DNA from: Bryobacter aggregatus MPL3
Lineage (GTDB): Bacteria > Acidobacteriota > Terriglobia > Bryobacterales > Bryobacteraceae
DNA: 64,000 bases
Reading direction: 5' to 3'
Assembly: GCF_000702445.1 (NCBI RefSeq)
Contig: NZ_JNIF01000003.1
Coordinates: forward strand, 4,154,001-4,218,000
Shown: positions 2,627 to 9,350 of the stretch, piece by piece
Layout of the letters: each line of letters opens with the position of its first letter
Numbering within the stretch: the stretch's first letter is position 1
Made by a program: the position numbers and the translations under genes
Notes under the pieces: model-generated
What the model saw: the letters and a program-made list of their open reading frames with translations, nothing else
Database searches by the model: none
Told to the model about the DNA's origin: nothing

Positions 2627-3799
2627 CTAAAACTCACGCACCTGCGTTTGATAGTTTGCAAAATTCCGCTTTGCTTCGCGAAGCGAATCGCCGCCGAATT
2701 TCTCGAGCATGGCCTGGGCCAGAACCAGCGCGACCATGGCCTCGCCAATGACTCCCGCTGCAGGAATGACCGCGACGTCGCTGCGTTCATAGACCGCAAG
2801 GGCGGAGTCTCTGGTGGGCAGGTCGACGCTTTCCAGGGGACGTCGGAGTGTCGAGATCGGCTTCAAATGGCCGCGGACGATGATGTCCTGCCCATTGGTG
2901 ATGCCTCCTTCGAGACCGCCAGCACGATTGGCGCCCCGGAAGAATTCACGTTCTTCTTTGTTGTAGTGAATGGTGTCCTGAACTTTACTGCCGAAACTCT
3001 GGGCTCCTTCGAGCGAATAGCCGACTTCAACGCCCTTGACCGCTTGCATGGAGACAATGGCCTGCGCCAGTTTGCCGTCGAGACGGGAATCCCAAGTGAT
3101 ATGAGAGCCCAAGCCAATCGGTACGCCATGGGCGCGTACTTCAAAGATGCCGCCGACCGTGTCCCCGGTGCGGTAGGCCTCGTCTACGACAGCCTTGAAG
3201 CGGACTTCGGTTTCGGGGTCGACGGTGCCGAGCAGGACTTCCTCTTTTTTGCTAAGCGCGACGAGGTCTTCCCAGGTTGCTTCGTAGGTGGAGGTTTCGC
3301 GCCCGACACCAACGACGTGACTCAGTACCTCAATGCCGAATTCGGCGAGGTAGGCCTTGGCGATGGCTCCGACGGCAACACGGGCCGTCGTTTCGCGAGC
3401 GCTGGCACGTTCCAGGATGTAACGGGCGTCATCGAAGTCGTACTTGATGCAGCCGATGAGGTCGGCATGGCCAGGACGCGGACGCTTCACTTCTTTGAAG
3501 TGTTCGGCCGCACCGTCGAAATCTTCGACTGGCATGGACTGCGTCCAGTTCTTCCAATCACGATTGGCGATGATGCATGCAATGGGTGCACCGATGGTCT
3601 TGGAATGCCGCACACCGGAAACGATGTGCGCCGTGTCTGTCTCGATCTTCATGCGGCCGCCACGGCCGAAGCCCTGCTGGCGGCGCCACAATTCACGATT
3701 GATTTTTTCTAGGGATATCGGGATGCCAGAGGGCAGGCCGGTGATCGTAGCCACCAGACATTCGCCATGGCTCTCGCCCGCGGTCTCAAAGCGAAACAT
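2627..3799 (-). CDS. aroC: chorismate synthase
   Basis: Last shikimate-pathway step: EPSP to chorismate, using reduced FMN. The 390-aa protein has the signatures FETAGESHG at the N-terminus, RPGHADL followed by KYDFDDARYILERASAR, and GGITNGQDIIVRGHLKP with STLRRPLESVDL near the C-terminal third. It is the first gene of the minus-strand operon with def, fmt and argJ; the 23-base gap to the upstream histidine kinase stop is too short for much of a promoter, so transcription may partly come from upstream. Chorismate made here feeds trpD (59021), which is elsewhere in the window and not linked. Confidence 0.97.
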   Translation of the reverse strand: MFRFETAGESHGECLVATITGLPSGIPISLEKINRELWRRQQGFGRGGRMKIETDTAHIVSGVRHSKTIGAPIACIIANRDWKNWTQSMPVEDFDGAAEHFKEVKRPRPGHADLIGCIKYDFDDARYILERASARETTARVAVGAIAKAYLAEFGIEVLSHVVGVGRETSTYEATWEDLVALSKKEEVLLGTVDPETEVRFKAVVDEAYRTGDTVGGIFEVRAHGVPIGLGSHITWDSRLDGKLAQAIVSMQAVKGVEVGYSLEGAQSFGSKVQDTIHYNKEEREFFRGANRAGGLEGGITNGQDIIVRGHLKPISTLRRPLESVDLPTRDSALAVYERSDVAVIPAAGVIGEAMVALVLAQAMLEKFGGDSLREAKRNFANYQTQVREF

Positions 3800-3822
3800 T
3801 GTACTTGTAAGTCACTAGTTTA

Positions 3823-5859
3823 TCAGGAGCTTTGCTCCTGCATCGCCAGGACACGGCGAAGAACATCGCTGAGTTGGTGGATTGTGAGAGGTTTGGCGAG
3901 ATAGTCTGTCATTCCGGCGGCCAGGCACAGGTCCTGGGCTCCGGCCATCACATTGGCGGTGAGGGCGACGATGGGCAGAGATTTGCGGCCTTCGTTCCTC
4001 TCCCATTCGCGAATTGCGGCGGTTGCGGCATATCCGTCCATCCCGGGCATCTGGCAATCCATCAGTACGACATCGAAGTCGCCCTCGCGCAGGTCTTGGA
4101 AGGCCTGGCTTCCATCGGCAGCAATCGTGACTTCGCAGCCCAAACGTTCGAGCATGATCCGGGCAACCTTCTGGTTGACCGGATTATCTTCTGCCAGGAG
4201 CACCCTGGCAGAGATGGGATCCAAGCTGCTGCTTTCCTCCTCCAGCGGTGACTCCGGAGTGCAGATGGCGTGGTTTAATGCGGCTCGGAGGGCTTCGGGT
4301 TGTACTGGTTTGAGCAGGCAGGTATCGATTCGCAGATTGTTCAGCAGCTTGCGGTCCAGGTCGTGAGCCGATGAGCCGAGAAGAATCACCGGAAGCTGTT
4401 GGAGGCCCGGCTGCGAGCGAATGGCCCGGGTGAGCATGAGTCCATCCATCAGAGGCATTTCAACGTCAATGATGGCCGCATCAAAAGGCTGTTCGGCCTG
4501 CAGCGCCTCCAGCAGGATTCCGAGGGCATGAGTGCCCGAGGAGGACTCGACGAGTTGGACTTGTTCCACGGTGAGCATATGGCAGAGAATGCGCAGGTTG
4601 ATCTCGTTATCGTCGACGGCAAGGATGCGCCGGGTGGCCAAGGTTGCGGCGGGAGTGGGGGGATTGGGCAGCGAGTTGGCCAAGGGGAGTTCGATTGTGA
4701 ACCAGAAAATTGATCCTGCGTGCTCCCGGCTGATCACGCCAATGCGTCCGTGCATCATCTCGACCAGGCGTTTAGAGATGGCAAGACCGAGTCCCGTGCC
4801 GCCGTAGCGGCGGTTCATGGAGGAATCTGCCTGAGTGAAGGCCTCGAACAGATGAGCGTGTGCCGCCTCGGAAATGCCGATTCCCGTGTCGGCAACCTCG
4901 AAGCGGAGCGAGGCGTGAGTGGCGGTACGGTTGAGAAGCGTTACTTTACAGGAGACTTCGCCCTGGGGCGTGAACTTGACCGCGTTCGACAGGAGATTGA
5001 CCAGAATTTGCCGCAGACGAACACTGTCGCCCAGCAGCGCCTCCGGAATCTCGTCGGAAATGCTGCGCCGTAATCCGAGATGCTTGCGCCGGGCGCCAGC
5101 GGCATTGAGCGCGATGGATTCTTCGACAACCTGACGTGGATCGAATGGGGCCGCTTCCATCGATAGCTTGCCTGCTTCGATTTTCGAGAAATCGAGAATG
5201 TCATTGATCACGGTGAGGAGTGCATCGCTGGAGAGGCGAATGGTGTCGAAGAGATCGTTTTCTTCAGCAGGGAGTGCAGAGGGTGGAATGAGTCCCAGGG
5301 TGCCGATGATGCCGTTGAGTGGAGTGCGGATTTCGTGGCTCATGGTCGCCAGGAAATTCGATTTGGCTCGATTCGCCTCCACCGCTTCATCCCGTGCGGA
5401 GGCGAGTTCCTTCGTGCGCTCTTCTACCTTTCGTTCGAGTTGCGCGTTGAGGAGCGCCAGCCGGTTGTTCGCATCTTCGAGATCTGCGGGAGAGGGGTAC
5501 TTTGAGGCGACCTTGATCAACTTAAATAGCATTCCCGCTGTGCAGATGGAAACAATGCCGGTTGCGAGTTTCAGGAGAACTTCAAAGCGATAAATGGGAT
5601 ACCAGAGGACATAAATACTGACCGCATGAGTTGCGCCGCAAAGGAGGATAAATGCGGCAAACATATAGAAAATCCAATTGAATACCAGATCTCTGCGGCG
5701 GTAGACAAAGCCAATCAGCGTGATGGGGATTGTGATGTAGGCCAGAACTATGAGCGCATCTGCGAGAACCGAAAGCCAGAGAATCTCAGGTCTCCACGCA
5801 AAACAATAACCGTGCGGCATGAAATCCGCTCGAAATAGGTTCGCGAAGAAGCGGAACAT
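3823..5859 (-). CDS. hybrid sensor histidine kinase with an ethylene-receptor-like N-terminal membrane domain
   Basis: 678 aa. Residues about 27-115 form three hydrophobic helices that match the ethylene-binding domain of plant ETR1 and cyanobacterial relatives: Asp34, Tyr41, Ile44 and Pro45 keep the spacing of ETR1 Asp25/Tyr32/Ile35/Pro36, and FILLCGATH gives Cys74 and His78, equivalent to the copper ligands Cys65/His69. Then come a coiled coil (about 125-165), HisKA with MSHEIRTP (His175), HATPase motifs DTGIGI and GGTGLGLAI (about 280-392), and two receiver domains with phospho-acceptors Asp465 (IIDVEMPLMDG) and Asp601 (LMDCQMPGMDG). No GAF domain separates sensor and kinase, unlike ETR1. 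No clear ribosome site precedes the ATG; Met14 (MPHGYC) is an alternative start. An inverted repeat lies just upstream. No cognate regulator is adjacent. The family match is by memory of ETR1 residues; ethylene or copper binding is inference. Confidence 0.9.
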   Translation of the reverse strand: MFRFFANLFRADFMPHGYCFAWRPEILWLSVLADALIVLAYITIPITLIGFVYRRRDLVFNWIFYMFAAFILLCGATHAVSIYVLWYPIYRFEVLLKLATGIVSICTAGMLFKLIKVASKYPSPADLEDANNRLALLNAQLERKVEERTKELASARDEAVEANRAKSNFLATMSHEIRTPLNGIIGTLGLIPPSALPAEENDLFDTIRLSSDALLTVINDILDFSKIEAGKLSMEAAPFDPRQVVEESIALNAAGARRKHLGLRRSISDEIPEALLGDSVRLRQILVNLLSNAVKFTPQGEVSCKVTLLNRTATHASLRFEVADTGIGISEAAHAHLFEAFTQADSSMNRRYGGTGLGLAISKRLVEMMHGRIGVISREHAGSIFWFTIELPLANSLPNPPTPAATLATRRILAVDDNEINLRILCHMLTVEQVQLVESSSGTHALGILLEALQAEQPFDAAIIDVEMPLMDGLMLTRAIRSQPGLQQLPVILLGSSAHDLDRKLLNNLRIDTCLLKPVQPEALRAALNHAICTPESPLEEESSSLDPISARVLLAEDNPVNQKVARIMLERLGCEVTIAADGSQAFQDLREGDFDVVLMDCQMPGMDGYAATAAIREWERNEGRKSLPIVALTANVMAGAQDLCLAAGMTDYLAKPLTIHQLSDVLRRVLAMQEQSS

Positions 5860-5875
5860 AGATTCTTTATAGCTT

Positions 5876-5897
5876 ACAGTAAGGTGGATTTTACTGT
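5876..5897. promoter_or_regulatory. inverted repeat upstream of the ethylene-receptor-like kinase
   Basis: ACAGTAA, 8-base spacer, TTACTGT: a perfect 7-base inverted repeat 17-38 bases upstream of the kinase ATG at 5859. It sits where an operator or a 5'-UTR hairpin would be. The 114-base gap (5860-5973) contains nothing else recognised. Function is inferred only from position and symmetry. Confidence 0.35.
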
Positions 5898-5973
5898 TAG
5901 TTAGATTTCTTGCCTGATGGATTTTTATTGCTTGATGGGTAAGGTCTCCGCAAATATGGCAGAAAGGTACAGA

Positions 5974-6741
5974 TTAAGGCGCGGCTACAAGGGCAACTGG
6001 CCGGACCGGAGAACCGGTAGCTCCGTTGAGCTTGAGAGGGAGGCAGATGAAGAAACACTCTTTCACTCCGGTGGTAGCAAGCTCTTCGAGATTGAGATTC
6101 TCAATGATATAGATCCCTTTCTGCGGGAGAAGGTAAAAGTGGGCAAAGAGCGTAACTCCGGTTTCGGGATCGACCACACCGGGGACATCCCAAGCCATGT
6201 TGTCCGCACCGACGGCAGACACTTGGTGATCTGCGGCCCAGAGGGTCGCAGACTTGTGAGCGCCAGCCGCTTTGAGATAAGCCGCCTCATCGTGCCAGAG
6301 CTTGGCAAAGCCGGTGCGGACCAGCAGGATGTCGCCGGGGTTGGGGCGCGTGCCACCGAGCGCGCGTTCGAGGTCGTCTGCGGTGAATTCGTACTCGGCA
6401 GGAAGGGGCGCGAGATCGGCAAAGACGGCACGGCGGAGGAGCGGTGGAATTTCTTCGACACCGTGTTGGGAGAAGCCGGCGGGCGATTCCACTTCGTGGG
6501 CGTTCACTCCACCATGCAGGCAACCGTGTGCGGCTTGGTGCGAGAGTGCGTCGATGTGAGTGCCGGTGTGTTCCATCATCGTCAGCACGCCGCCAGCGCT
6601 GGTGCGGGGGGTGCCGGTTGGGTCGGAATGCCGGCGGTGTAGCGCGTAGAAATATCCGGGTTTGTGAGCCGGATGGATGGGCATACCAGTGAAGCGGGGT
6701 TGCTCGAGGTCGATGATGCGAGCGTTGGTGAGAGGGTTCAT
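5974..6741 (-). CDS. cyclase-family (kynurenine-formamidase-like) metal-dependent hydrolase
   Basis: 255-aa cytoplasmic protein of the cyclase superfamily (PF04199 type), whose members include bacterial kynurenine formamidase KynB and isatin hydrolase. The metal-binding signature HTGTHID is at residues 58-64, with a further His68 (DALSHQ). The substrate cannot be deduced; no tryptophan-catabolism genes are nearby. Its start codon overlaps the stop of the upstream Ser/Thr kinase by ATGA (6738-6741), so it is translated from the kinase message, an unusual partner for this hydrolase. No signal peptide is visible. Confidence 0.85.
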   Translation of the reverse strand: MNPLTNARIIDLEQPRFTGMPIHPAHKPGYFYALHRRHSDPTGTPRTSAGGVLTMMEHTGTHIDALSHQAAHGCLHGGVNAHEVESPAGFSQHGVEEIPPLLRRAVFADLAPLPAEYEFTADDLERALGGTRPNPGDILLVRTGFAKLWHDEAAYLKAAGAHKSATLWAADHQVSAVGADNMAWDVPGVVDPETGVTLFAHFYLLPQKGIYIIENLNLEELATTGVKECFFICLPLKLNGATGSPVRPVALVAAP

Positions 6742-9350
6742 TGTGCGGTTTCTCCGAGGATGTGTTGGTTTCCCAGGGAGCGCCAGAAGCCGTAGATCGC
6801 CAGGACTGCGGCCATCACGAGGGTAGTGATCGTAAAGGGCATGAACCAGTCGAAGGGGTCAGTGGAAGTGGCTGCGCGTCCGAGGGAGTTGGTGATGAAT
6901 ACGGCTACGAGCGTGGTGAGGAGTCCAAAGCGAATGAGGCCAATCATGATGAAGAGGCTGATCAAGGTGTAAACACCTGCGTCGAGCCAGACGTTTTGCG
7001 ATTGGAAGAGTTGGCCGTTGGTGAGGGAGAGCAGGATCGCAGAGACCACGATGGCGGGGAGCTCGCGGCGGAATAAAACTTTGAGTCCGAAGATGACGAA
7101 GAAGAAGAGCAGTCCGACACTGAGGGAACTGTTGGCAATGAGAAGGTGCGAGGCGATCCAATCGCGGGTGGAGAGATCGCTGATGTTCCCGGTGCTGAGC
7201 AAGCCGCTGCGTTGGAAGCTAAACCAATCTCTAACGAGAAAGGCGGAGGTGATGATGATCCCCATGGCCACGCCCATCAGGATGTGGGATCCGACTGCGG
7301 GGTCAGTGAAGTTGCCGGAGAGAATCCGGTTCCAGGTGATGATCGACTTCGGCCAACGGGCGCGCAGAGCCGGTTCGAGAGCGAGGTAGAGCTGCCATAA
7401 AACCAATCCGCTGAGAAGCGCTTCCGCGATGGCAAAGCCAGCGAAACTGAACATCCGGAGGTCCGGGATGTAGTGTGCACTCAGCAACCAAGCGGAGAGA
7501 AGCAGAATCATGCGGATGACGAAGAGATGGAATGCGCCTCGCCGATCGGCACGGTTGCTGATCCAGTTCTTGTGGGCGAGACTGGCACTGAAGAAAAGAA
7601 AGCCGAGCAGAGCGAGCGTGATGAAGTGCTGCTGGACGTTCTGTGCTTTATCCAGCATTCTGCCGCTATCGCTGATGGGCGGCGACCAGGGAGCCTGGAT
7701 GTAAAGTGAGGTGAGGCGGCCTTTCCATGTGGTGTATTGGAGGTCGACTGTGGTTCCTGGCAGTCGAGGGTGGGGGCCACGCAGACTCACCCGCTGGTCA
7801 AAGACGCTGCCGGGTGTTCGGAGGGCGGGGGCTTCGGCGAACTTCGAGCGATCGAAGCTCATGGCCTCAAAGAGGTGATTCTCGTTCCAGGGGATTGTTG
7901 GGCTCTCTTCTTTGCGGGAGGGAATGGCTTCAAACAGGATCAGATTTCCCATGCTGTCGAGCATGAGCCGGACCATGCCTGGCGCGTCAAAGCCAGGACG
8001 GTTCCAACGTACGAGACCATCGGGACTCTCGGTGAGATAGTCGTTGCTCTGGCGGTAGGCATACAGAATGGGAGACTCCGCGGCAAAGAGCTTGTTCCAG
8101 TCGCGACTATTCTGCTTCTCCAACCATGTTTTCACCCCGCCTCGAGTTTCGAAGAACTGTTCCCAATCCATGGGTTTCTCCGGGTAGCCGAAGGTTTTGA
8201 TGAGTTCCTGGGAACGTGCCTGCAAGGCCGCCGGCGCCAGATCGAGTGGCGTGTAGTCCAGGGTCTCGATGTGTCCTTTGAAAAAGGGAAAGCTTGCGAG
8301 AAAGAGCAGGCAAAAGGCGAGGAGCGGGATGCTGTGGCGACGGCCGAGACCTTCGCTTCTGCTGGCGGCCACCAACTCCGGGCTTGGGGTTTGGCCAGCC
8401 GCGAGCGCGGCCGTAAGAGGATCGCCACCGGGCAAGCCCGCGGATACGATGAGGGCGGTTTTGGGCCGGTGCGCGGGAGTGGGATCGAGGCAAAGGCGAA
8501 TGACCTTCTCGACAGAAGGATCAATGTCGGTTGCCAACGAAATCATGCTGGTGATCGACATGGCCTCCTGCTGGTTTAGCAGTTCGTTGGCCGTGGTGCC
8601 TGAGTACGCTTTGCGGGCGGTGAAGATTTCGTAGAGGACCAGGCCGAGCGAATAAATGTCGCTTTGTTGGGTGACTTCGGTGCCTTTGAGTTGCTCGGGG
8701 GCCATGTAGGCGGGCGTGCCCTGGCGGGATTCGGGACCACTCAATTGATCGGCGACAGCGGCAAGTCCGAAATCGCAGATGAGCACCTCGCCACGCTTGT
8801 CGAGCATGATGTTCTGCGGTTTGAGGTCGCGATGGATGACGCCGCGATCGTGGGCCGCGGCCAGACCGGCGCAGATCTTGCGTGAGATCTCGAGAGCCTT
8901 GTCAGTGGGCAGGCGTCCGATGCGGAGCAGGAGGGTGGAGAGATCTTCTCCGTCGACGTATTCCATCGAAAGGAAGGGAAGTCCTTCACTCTCGCCGATG
9001 TCATAGACACGGCAGACGTTGGGATGAGAGACCTGGCGGGCGATGCGGACTTCGCTGTGGAAGCGTTCGAGCCAGCGAGGATCATTGTCGACGAGGTGGG
9101 GGAGAAACTTCAGGGCGACAGACTGGCCGAGCGTGAGGTCGGTGGCGCGGTAGACTTCGCCCATGCCGCCGCGGCCGAGCAGAGCGATGATGCGGTAGCG
9201 GCCATTGAGCAGGGTTCCCGGGGGAAATCGGCCTTCAATGGGGTGTGGCTGAGAAGAATGCGAGCTGGGAGTTGTGCTTCGCGCAGCCTGGACCGCGCCG
9301 GTGCCGACGACGGTCTGAGTGAAGTCGGCTGGCGAATCATCAGGCATCAT
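6738..9350 (-). CDS. membrane-anchored Ser/Thr protein kinase with large multi-pass C-terminal domain
   Basis: 870 aa. The Pkn-type catalytic domain (about 50-310) has the glycine loop LGRGGMGEVYRA, Lys81 (ALKFL), HRDLKPQN with Asp175, DFGLA with Asp193, and TPAYMAPEQL, so it appears active. One transmembrane segment follows (about 343-360), then an extracytoplasmic region of about 230 residues, then roughly eight hydrophobic helices from about residue 570 to the end (starting HFITLALLGFLFFSASL). The C-terminal polytopic region matches nothing I recognise. It may sense a membrane signal. The 3' end is coupled to the cyclase-family gene. The start ATGATG at 9348-9350 lies only 4 bases from the divergent amidohydrolase start, so its promoter must lie within that gene or the true start is further inside. 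Confidence 0.9.
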   Translation of the reverse strand: MMPDDSPADFTQTVVGTGAVQAARSTTPSSHSSQPHPIEGRFPPGTLLNGRYRIIALLGRGGMGEVYRATDLTLGQSVALKFLPHLVDNDPRWLERFHSEVRIARQVSHPNVCRVYDIGESEGLPFLSMEYVDGEDLSTLLLRIGRLPTDKALEISRKICAGLAAAHDRGVIHRDLKPQNIMLDKRGEVLICDFGLAAVADQLSGPESRQGTPAYMAPEQLKGTEVTQQSDIYSLGLVLYEIFTARKAYSGTTANELLNQQEAMSITSMISLATDIDPSVEKVIRLCLDPTPAHRPKTALIVSAGLPGGDPLTAALAAGQTPSPELVAASRSEGLGRRHSIPLLAFCLLFLASFPFFKGHIETLDYTPLDLAPAALQARSQELIKTFGYPEKPMDWEQFFETRGGVKTWLEKQNSRDWNKLFAAESPILYAYRQSNDYLTESPDGLVRWNRPGFDAPGMVRLMLDSMGNLILFEAIPSRKEESPTIPWNENHLFEAMSFDRSKFAEAPALRTPGSVFDQRVSLRGPHPRLPGTTVDLQYTTWKGRLTSLYIQAPWSPPISDSGRMLDKAQNVQQHFITLALLGFLFFSASLAHKNWISNRADRRGAFHLFVIRMILLLSAWLLSAHYIPDLRMFSFAGFAIAEALLSGLVLWQLYLALEPALRARWPKSIITWNRILSGNFTDPAVGSHILMGVAMGIIITSAFLVRDWFSFQRSGLLSTGNISDLSTRDWIASHLLIANSSLSVGLLFFFVIFGLKVLFRRELPAIVVSAILLSLTNGQLFQSQNVWLDAGVYTLISLFIMIGLIRFGLLTTLVAVFITNSLGRAATSTDPFDWFMPFTITTLVMAAVLAIYGFWRSLGNQHILGETAQ

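Follow-up and report, generated by a model that had tools for sequence, protein, structure and literature searches.

The window, i.e., the whole stretch of 64,000 nucleotides from Bryobacter aggregatus MPL3 that we analyzed, carries on its minus strand an open reading frame (5859..3823, 678 aa) for a hybrid histidine kinase with an ethylene-binding domain (EBD); coordinates, strand, and length had been given correctly by a first-pass annotation made from the sequence letters. Upstream on the same strand lie a Ser/Thr kinase gene and a putative cyclase gene (PF04199), and downstream follow aroC, with 23 bases between the EBD kinase stop and the aroC start, and the genes for polypeptide deformylase (def), formyl transferase (fmt), and argJ. 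The features of the locus are compiled in Table 1. By eye, the C-terminal half of the Ser/Thr protein kinase (window 6738-9350, 870 aa) looks hydrophobic and multi-helix.

Table 1. Features of the EBD kinase locus in window coordinates
Feature	Position	Strand	Basis
EBD hybrid histidine kinase gene	3823..5859	-	ORF and Pfam matches
Ethylene-binding domain ETR1_N (PF25487), residues 26-118	5506..5784	-	Pfam; three-helix model
N-terminal P15-H16-x2-C19 motif, predicted periplasmic	5803..5817	-	Residue survey; short model helix 16-20
Cys74 to His78, putative Cu(I) ligands	5626..5640	-	Residue positions and AlphaFold model
Continuous helix, residues 124-162, from sensor to HisKA	5374..5490	-	AlphaFold model
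HisKA, residues 165-230, phospho-acceptor His175 by motif	5170..5367	-	Pfam and motif
HATPase_c, residues 277-392	4684..5031	-	Pfam
First receiver, approx. residues 412-523 (limits by eye), phospho-acceptor Asp465 by motif	4291..4626	-	Pfam and motif
Second receiver, residues 553-667, phospho-acceptor Asp601 by motif	3859..4203	-	Pfam and motif
aroC (chorismate synthase PF01264), downstream neighbor, outside the sensor	2627..3799	-	Profile match
Putative cyclase PF04199, upstream neighbor, outside the sensor	5974..6741	-	Pfam

The first-pass annotation had proposed a profile search with an ethylene-binding domain model, and this search matched residues 26-118 to ETR1_N (PF25487) with 106.9 bits (E 6.4e-31) against a cut-off of 27. 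The Pfam matches run in the order ETR1_N, HisKA, HATPase_c, and two receiver stretches, the better receiver match being that at residues 553-667. Consistent with the annotated build, in which the sensor feeds into HisKA/HATPase and two receivers without a GAF domain, we found no Pfam match to GAF or PAS in the 678-aa kinase, and residues 118-165, where the helix 124-162 lies, were empty; likewise, no HPt domain was matched within the kinase. As judged from motif positions, HisKA carries the phospho-transfer motif SHEIRTPLNG with His175, the HATPase has DTGIG and GGTGLGL, and the receivers carry Asp465 (first) and Asp601 together with Thr634 and Lys656 (second), so all parts of a hybrid histidine kinase (i.e., HisKA, HATPase, receivers, and phospho-acceptor residues) are there. 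Chance resemblance to ETR1_N can be excluded, because the profile match is strong, a PF25487 search of the host genome (5.75 Mb, 98% complete) turned up the window kinase alone, and all 14 control genomes were free of matches. Misassembly or a foreign contig was ruled out as well, given that the contig measures 4.26 Mb and the gene order is also kept in a genome of the same genus.

We compared the sensor with plant ETR1, whose ethylene-binding residues are D25, Y32, I35, P36, I62, C65, and H69. All seven counterparts (D34, Y41, I44, P45, I71, C74, and H78) are present, and Lys97 matches ETR1 K91; the first-pass annotation had placed D34-x6-Y41-x2-I44-P45, Cys74, and His78 accurately, and I71 and K97 match in addition. 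That ethylene binding in ETR1 needs seven residues has been reported (PMC11819568; PMC6682694), and ETR1 D25, C65, H69, and K91 align with D35, C75, H79, and K98 of the bacterial receptor AzoEtr1 (PMC11819568). The second proposed check, a structure prediction of the sensor, was made with AlphaFold2 for residues 1-163 using an alignment that included as relatives 71 of the 80 named loci described below, and yielded a mean pLDDT of 94.4 and a pTM of 0.78. The model contains helices at residues 2-6, 16-20, 24-54, 61-86, 90-118, and 124-162, i.e., three long sensor helices as anticipated, with Cys74 and His78 predicted to lie four residues or one turn apart in the second of them (as read from the helix places), and with residues 124-162 forming a single helix that runs into the HisKA domain. 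From hydropathy, the helices 24-54, 61-86, and 90-118 would span the membrane, and because arginines at 54-56 sit between helices 1 and 2 and the kinase is cytoplasmic, the positive-inside rule suggests an N-out, C-in topology. A Foldseek search of the PDB with the sensor model returned no match below E 0.001 (best 0.82), and in a separate search by sequence no solved structure among the matches listed (60 of 272) covered the sensor, the best stretch starting at residue 124 or later. Taken together, the profile match, the residues, the model, and the named relatives support a real EBD hybrid kinase in an acidobacterium, and the protein is an intact and probably functional hybrid kinase of the ethylene-receptor type.

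The slot between cyclase and aroC was read in five genomes of the genus (window included), and the EBD kinase fills it in two of them. More specifically, genome G004 of the same genus has the order cyclase, EBD kinase, sulfatase, aroC, def, fmt, and argJ, its EBD kinase being 60% identical to that of the window over 670 aa; aroC comes right after the cyclase in G001 and G005, where the gap between the matches measures 36 and 27 bases; and the slot of G003 holds a sulfatase that is 81% identical over 528 aa to the G004 sulfatase. The slot (window 2627-6741) is thus empty in two genomes and holds a sulfatase in one, the EBD kinase in one (the window), and both in one. No sulfatase of the G004 type was found within the first 15 kb of the window. 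G005 gave no PF25487 match; what it does have, beyond an amidohydrolase gene, is a sequence that matches the window protein at 31% in the kinase part. A functional tie to aroC, def, fmt, and argJ was rejected, as the slot lacks the kinase in three of the five genomes, and the EBD kinase gene appears to ride as a passenger among clustered housekeeping genes.

To place the domain in a wider context, we counted genomes with PF25487 matches at E <= 0.001. Of 61 relatives, 12 had such a match, and of 396 genomes sampled from the phylum, 18 had one (own genome in both counts). In the phyla to which a Methylomonas and an Obscuribacterales genome belong, the figures were 23 of 299 and 74 of 292, respectively, these two sets presumably representing Pseudomonadota and Cyanobacteriota; two genomes of the host-phylum sample had four matches each. 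A separate named scan, from which 80 of 115 confirmed loci were kept, covered Acidobacteriota, Bacteroidota, Pseudomonadota, Myxococcota, and others, and of its two best matches one came from an Acidobacteria genome and the other from that of a Bryobacter sp., in line with the acidobacterial setting that had been proposed. In the first-pass view that such domains occur outside plants mostly in cyanobacteria and scattered bacteria, "scattered" understates a family of several phyla. In a tree of the EBD (96 rows), the window protein formed one clade with the proteins of loci L044 and L045 (100/95), and within it grouped with L044 (100/90); the phyla were interleaved, with support below 80 on 31 of 92 inner branches. 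Both clade mates belong to the same genus (60% identity over 670 aa for L044 and 50% over 671 aa for L045) and share the order EBD-HisKA-HATPase-REC-REC, as confirmed with Pfam. L044 (JANXLY010000375.1, an acidobacterial metagenome genome) differs from the window by a sulfatase gene (PF00884) between kinase and aroC, and L045 (JANXUM010000412.1, likewise an acidobacterial metagenome genome) by a different gene context.

Across the 80 named loci and the window, in part of which start codons are approximate, 18 of 81 encoded hybrids with a receiver and six of these had two (L044, L045, L078, L084, and L098 besides the window), according to home-made profiles, of which that for HATPase missed at least L094 and left 21 loci without HATPase, three of them cut by contig ends. 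An EBD kinase with two fused receivers is, in other words, a minority build that is not unique. A gene for a receiver-domain protein was adjacent on the same strand at 29 of the 81 loci and within three genes at 12 more, and 40 had none, a class that includes L047 and L058, which came without a neighbor table. Some other builds were seen. In two acidobacterial proteins (L118:7989-11135 and L109:2636-3547) the EBD is followed by CHASE3, giving two sensor domains in one chain, and an EBD hybrid kinase from Obscuribacterales (L079:1030-3078) bears, within a single chain, an HPt domain of its own in addition to a receiver.

The least ordinary feature of the protein is the N-terminal P-H-x2-C motif, which is predicted to lie in the periplasm just before helix 1. 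Because the patterns used to pick the 80 named loci included this motif, we assessed its conservation not on them but in a survey of sequences retrieved with PF25487, a profile that matches behind the motif. The survey comprised 92 of 95 loci (L031, L037, and L162, missed by the profile search, were left out), and the share from the Obscuribacterales-centered phylum consisted of the 30 top-scoring loci. Cys74 and His78 were both kept in 79/92 sequences and all seven residues in 57/92. Among the 79 with an intact Cys74/His78 pair, His16 was present in 76, Cys19 in 76, Pro15 in 78, and all three in 74, as compared with core residues Asp34 (74), Tyr41 (75), Pro45 (63), and Lys97 (68). In bacteria, the motif is thus conserved about like the best-kept core residues. 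His16 and Cys19 occurred together with the intact pair in 74/92 sequences, a broken pair went with loss of His16 and/or Cys19 in 11/92, and 7/92 were mixed (5 and 2). Co-loss of motif and copper ligands was rejected as proof of a link, since in the 13 broken-pair sequences many other columns drop too (Tyr90 and Thr107 to 2/13): divergent members lose most conserved columns, and the tally ignores kinship. Divergent PF25487 members lacking copper-ligand and/or motif residues include L026, L027, L028, L030, L033-L036, and L038 from the host phylum.

Plant ETR1 is not known to have a histidine that matches His16, and the accessible text of the cited papers does not refer to this histidine. Plant ETR1 has two N-terminal cysteines, whereas the window protein has one, in P-H-x2-C, and cyanobacterial receptors are described with one N-terminal cysteine and a possible disulfide (PMC6682694). 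As a tentative and rather doubtful proposal, the motif may be a second functional element without a plant counterpart that either loads or gates Cu(I) or closes a redox-sensitive dimer disulfide, in which case the kinases would respond jointly to ethylene and to copper or redox state.

Arabidopsis ETR1 resembles the window protein in its EBD residues (D25, Y32, I35, P36, I62, C65, H69, and K91) and in having a kinase followed by a receiver. It differs in possessing a GAF domain and a single receiver (PMC6586836), as compared with no GAF and two receivers here, and it acts on CTR1 (PMC7700396). SynEtr1 (Synechocystis slr1212) and AzoEtr1 (Azospirillum brasilense) are published functional bacterial ethylene receptors (PMC11819568), and putative ones have been stated for further bacterial phyla (PMC11819568; PMC7700396). 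Like the window protein, AzoEtr1 combines a bacterial EBD and seven binding residues with histidine kinase output, and the numbering of its D35, C75, H79, and K98 exceeds that of D34, C74, H78, and K97 by one in each case (PMC11819568). AzoEtr1 is, however, a 525-aa protein with a PAS domain and a paired response-regulator gene, no receiver being mentioned in the accessible portion of the source (PMC11819568), whereas the window kinase lacks PAS and has two receivers fused to it, and none of the three genes to each side of it codes for a receiver domain. SynEtr1 is likewise a bacterial EBD kinase, in which mutation of the matching Cys abolishes binding, but it doubles as a light receptor and has its response regulator as a separate protein (PMC11819568), whereas the window protein has the Pfam-matched domains alone. 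Among its top-listed papers, our literature search, whose reach excluded most subscription journals, showed none on an acidobacterial ethylene receptor.

We propose, with a probability of about 0.68, that the protein is a copper(I)-dependent ethylene-sensing hybrid kinase of the inner membrane, of the bacterial SynEtr1/AzoEtr1 kind, with output via an unlinked HPt protein and response regulator. Cu(I) would be held by Cys74 and His78 of helix 2, aided by Asp34 (helix 1) and Lys97 (helix 3), and ethylene on the copper would shift the helices; the shift may then pass along the continuous helix 124-162 to the HisKA dimer and alter autophosphorylation at His175, from which phosphate could move to Asp465 and/or Asp601 of the receivers. 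Because the kinase contains no HPt domain, the receivers would pass phosphate to a separate HPt protein and thence to an unlinked response regulator. Three HPt matches were found in the genome, one of them in a short open frame (118 residues, with a 115-aa ORF; contig C3 1854712-1855059, L135:5713-6060), and this short protein is a possible candidate for the relay partner. By eye, the frame adjoining it resembles a kinase-receiver protein.

Counted in favor of this reading were the PF25487 match, the seven binding residues plus Lys97, the confident three-helix model, the catalytic motifs, the short HPt protein, the sensor and domain order kept in L044 and L045, and the binding of 14C-ethylene by the first 130 residues of AzoEtr1 expressed in Pichia (PMC11819568), with matching residues. 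Counted against it were the patchy presence of PF25487 in the genus (four of eight genomes, own included), in view of which the EBD kinase is not essential to the lifestyle, the lack of a receiver-domain gene nearby, the lack of any recognized ethylene-linked gene among the neighbors, and the finding that an ACC deaminase model had no match in the genome. The last two points also fit a real Cu(I) site whose natural signal is another pi-acceptor or gas of the soil (CO, acetylene, propylene, or other short alkenes), with ethylene merely able to bind, and indeed Cu(I) bound by Cys/His is not chemically specific to ethylene. We nevertheless consider such a signal unlikely, because SynEtr1 and AzoEtr1 bind ethylene through matching residues (PMC11819568), and the window protein retains both Asp34, which corresponds to the ETR1 residue that sets ethylene affinity (PMC13012798), and Lys97, whose counterpart is tied to receptor output (PMC11819568).

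The first-pass annotation had suggested that ethylene or copper is sensed. For ethylene this is the reading that we favor, as an inference; a copper sensor, in which kinase activity differs between the apo and copper-loaded forms and ethylene is irrelevant, would suit the conserved Cys/His pair of helix 2 and the second conserved His and Cys at the N terminus. The plant ETR1 sensor, however, binds one Cu(I) per monomer with a Kd of ~1.3e-15 M (PMC6586836), an affinity better suited to a cofactor than to a graded signal, and copper is therefore likelier to be a fixed cofactor than what is sensed. By eye, no copper gene was recognized among the nearest neighbors either, and copper sensing seems quite improbable to us. 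We give still less credence to the sensor being a relic, i.e., a fold kept as a dimerizing membrane anchor of a kinase that answers to something else. PF25487 members without Cys74 and/or His78 do exist (13/92, among them the truncated match of L029), but all key residues are intact in the window protein and in its two clade mates (L007 and L013 in the survey are the same genes as L044 and L045), although the domains are only 56-68% identical, which implies selection.

The window kinase belongs to a known, widespread bacterial family and is a good, if unsurprising, lead. Were ethylene bound, common and hard-to-grow soil bacteria would be able to sense a gas that plants and soil life give off. 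The two-receiver build would then constitute a phosphorelay form of receptor, a form that the accessible text of the cited papers does not list as tested. Of wider use is the comparative set, in which the N-terminal His/Cys motif is common to bacterial members of several phyla; this motif is the part most worth specialist attention, and assays that already work for AzoEtr1 and SynEtr1 (PMC11819568) are at hand for it. A further build encountered in this set was an EBD fused directly to a GGDEF diguanylate cyclase (L107:8001-8969 and L114:7998-8954, Pfam-confirmed), which by shared sequence behind the EBD is likely also present at L089, L099, L100, L101, L104, and L106; the hosts of these fusions are Arsukibacterium, Rheinheimera, and one Gammaproteobacteria genome.
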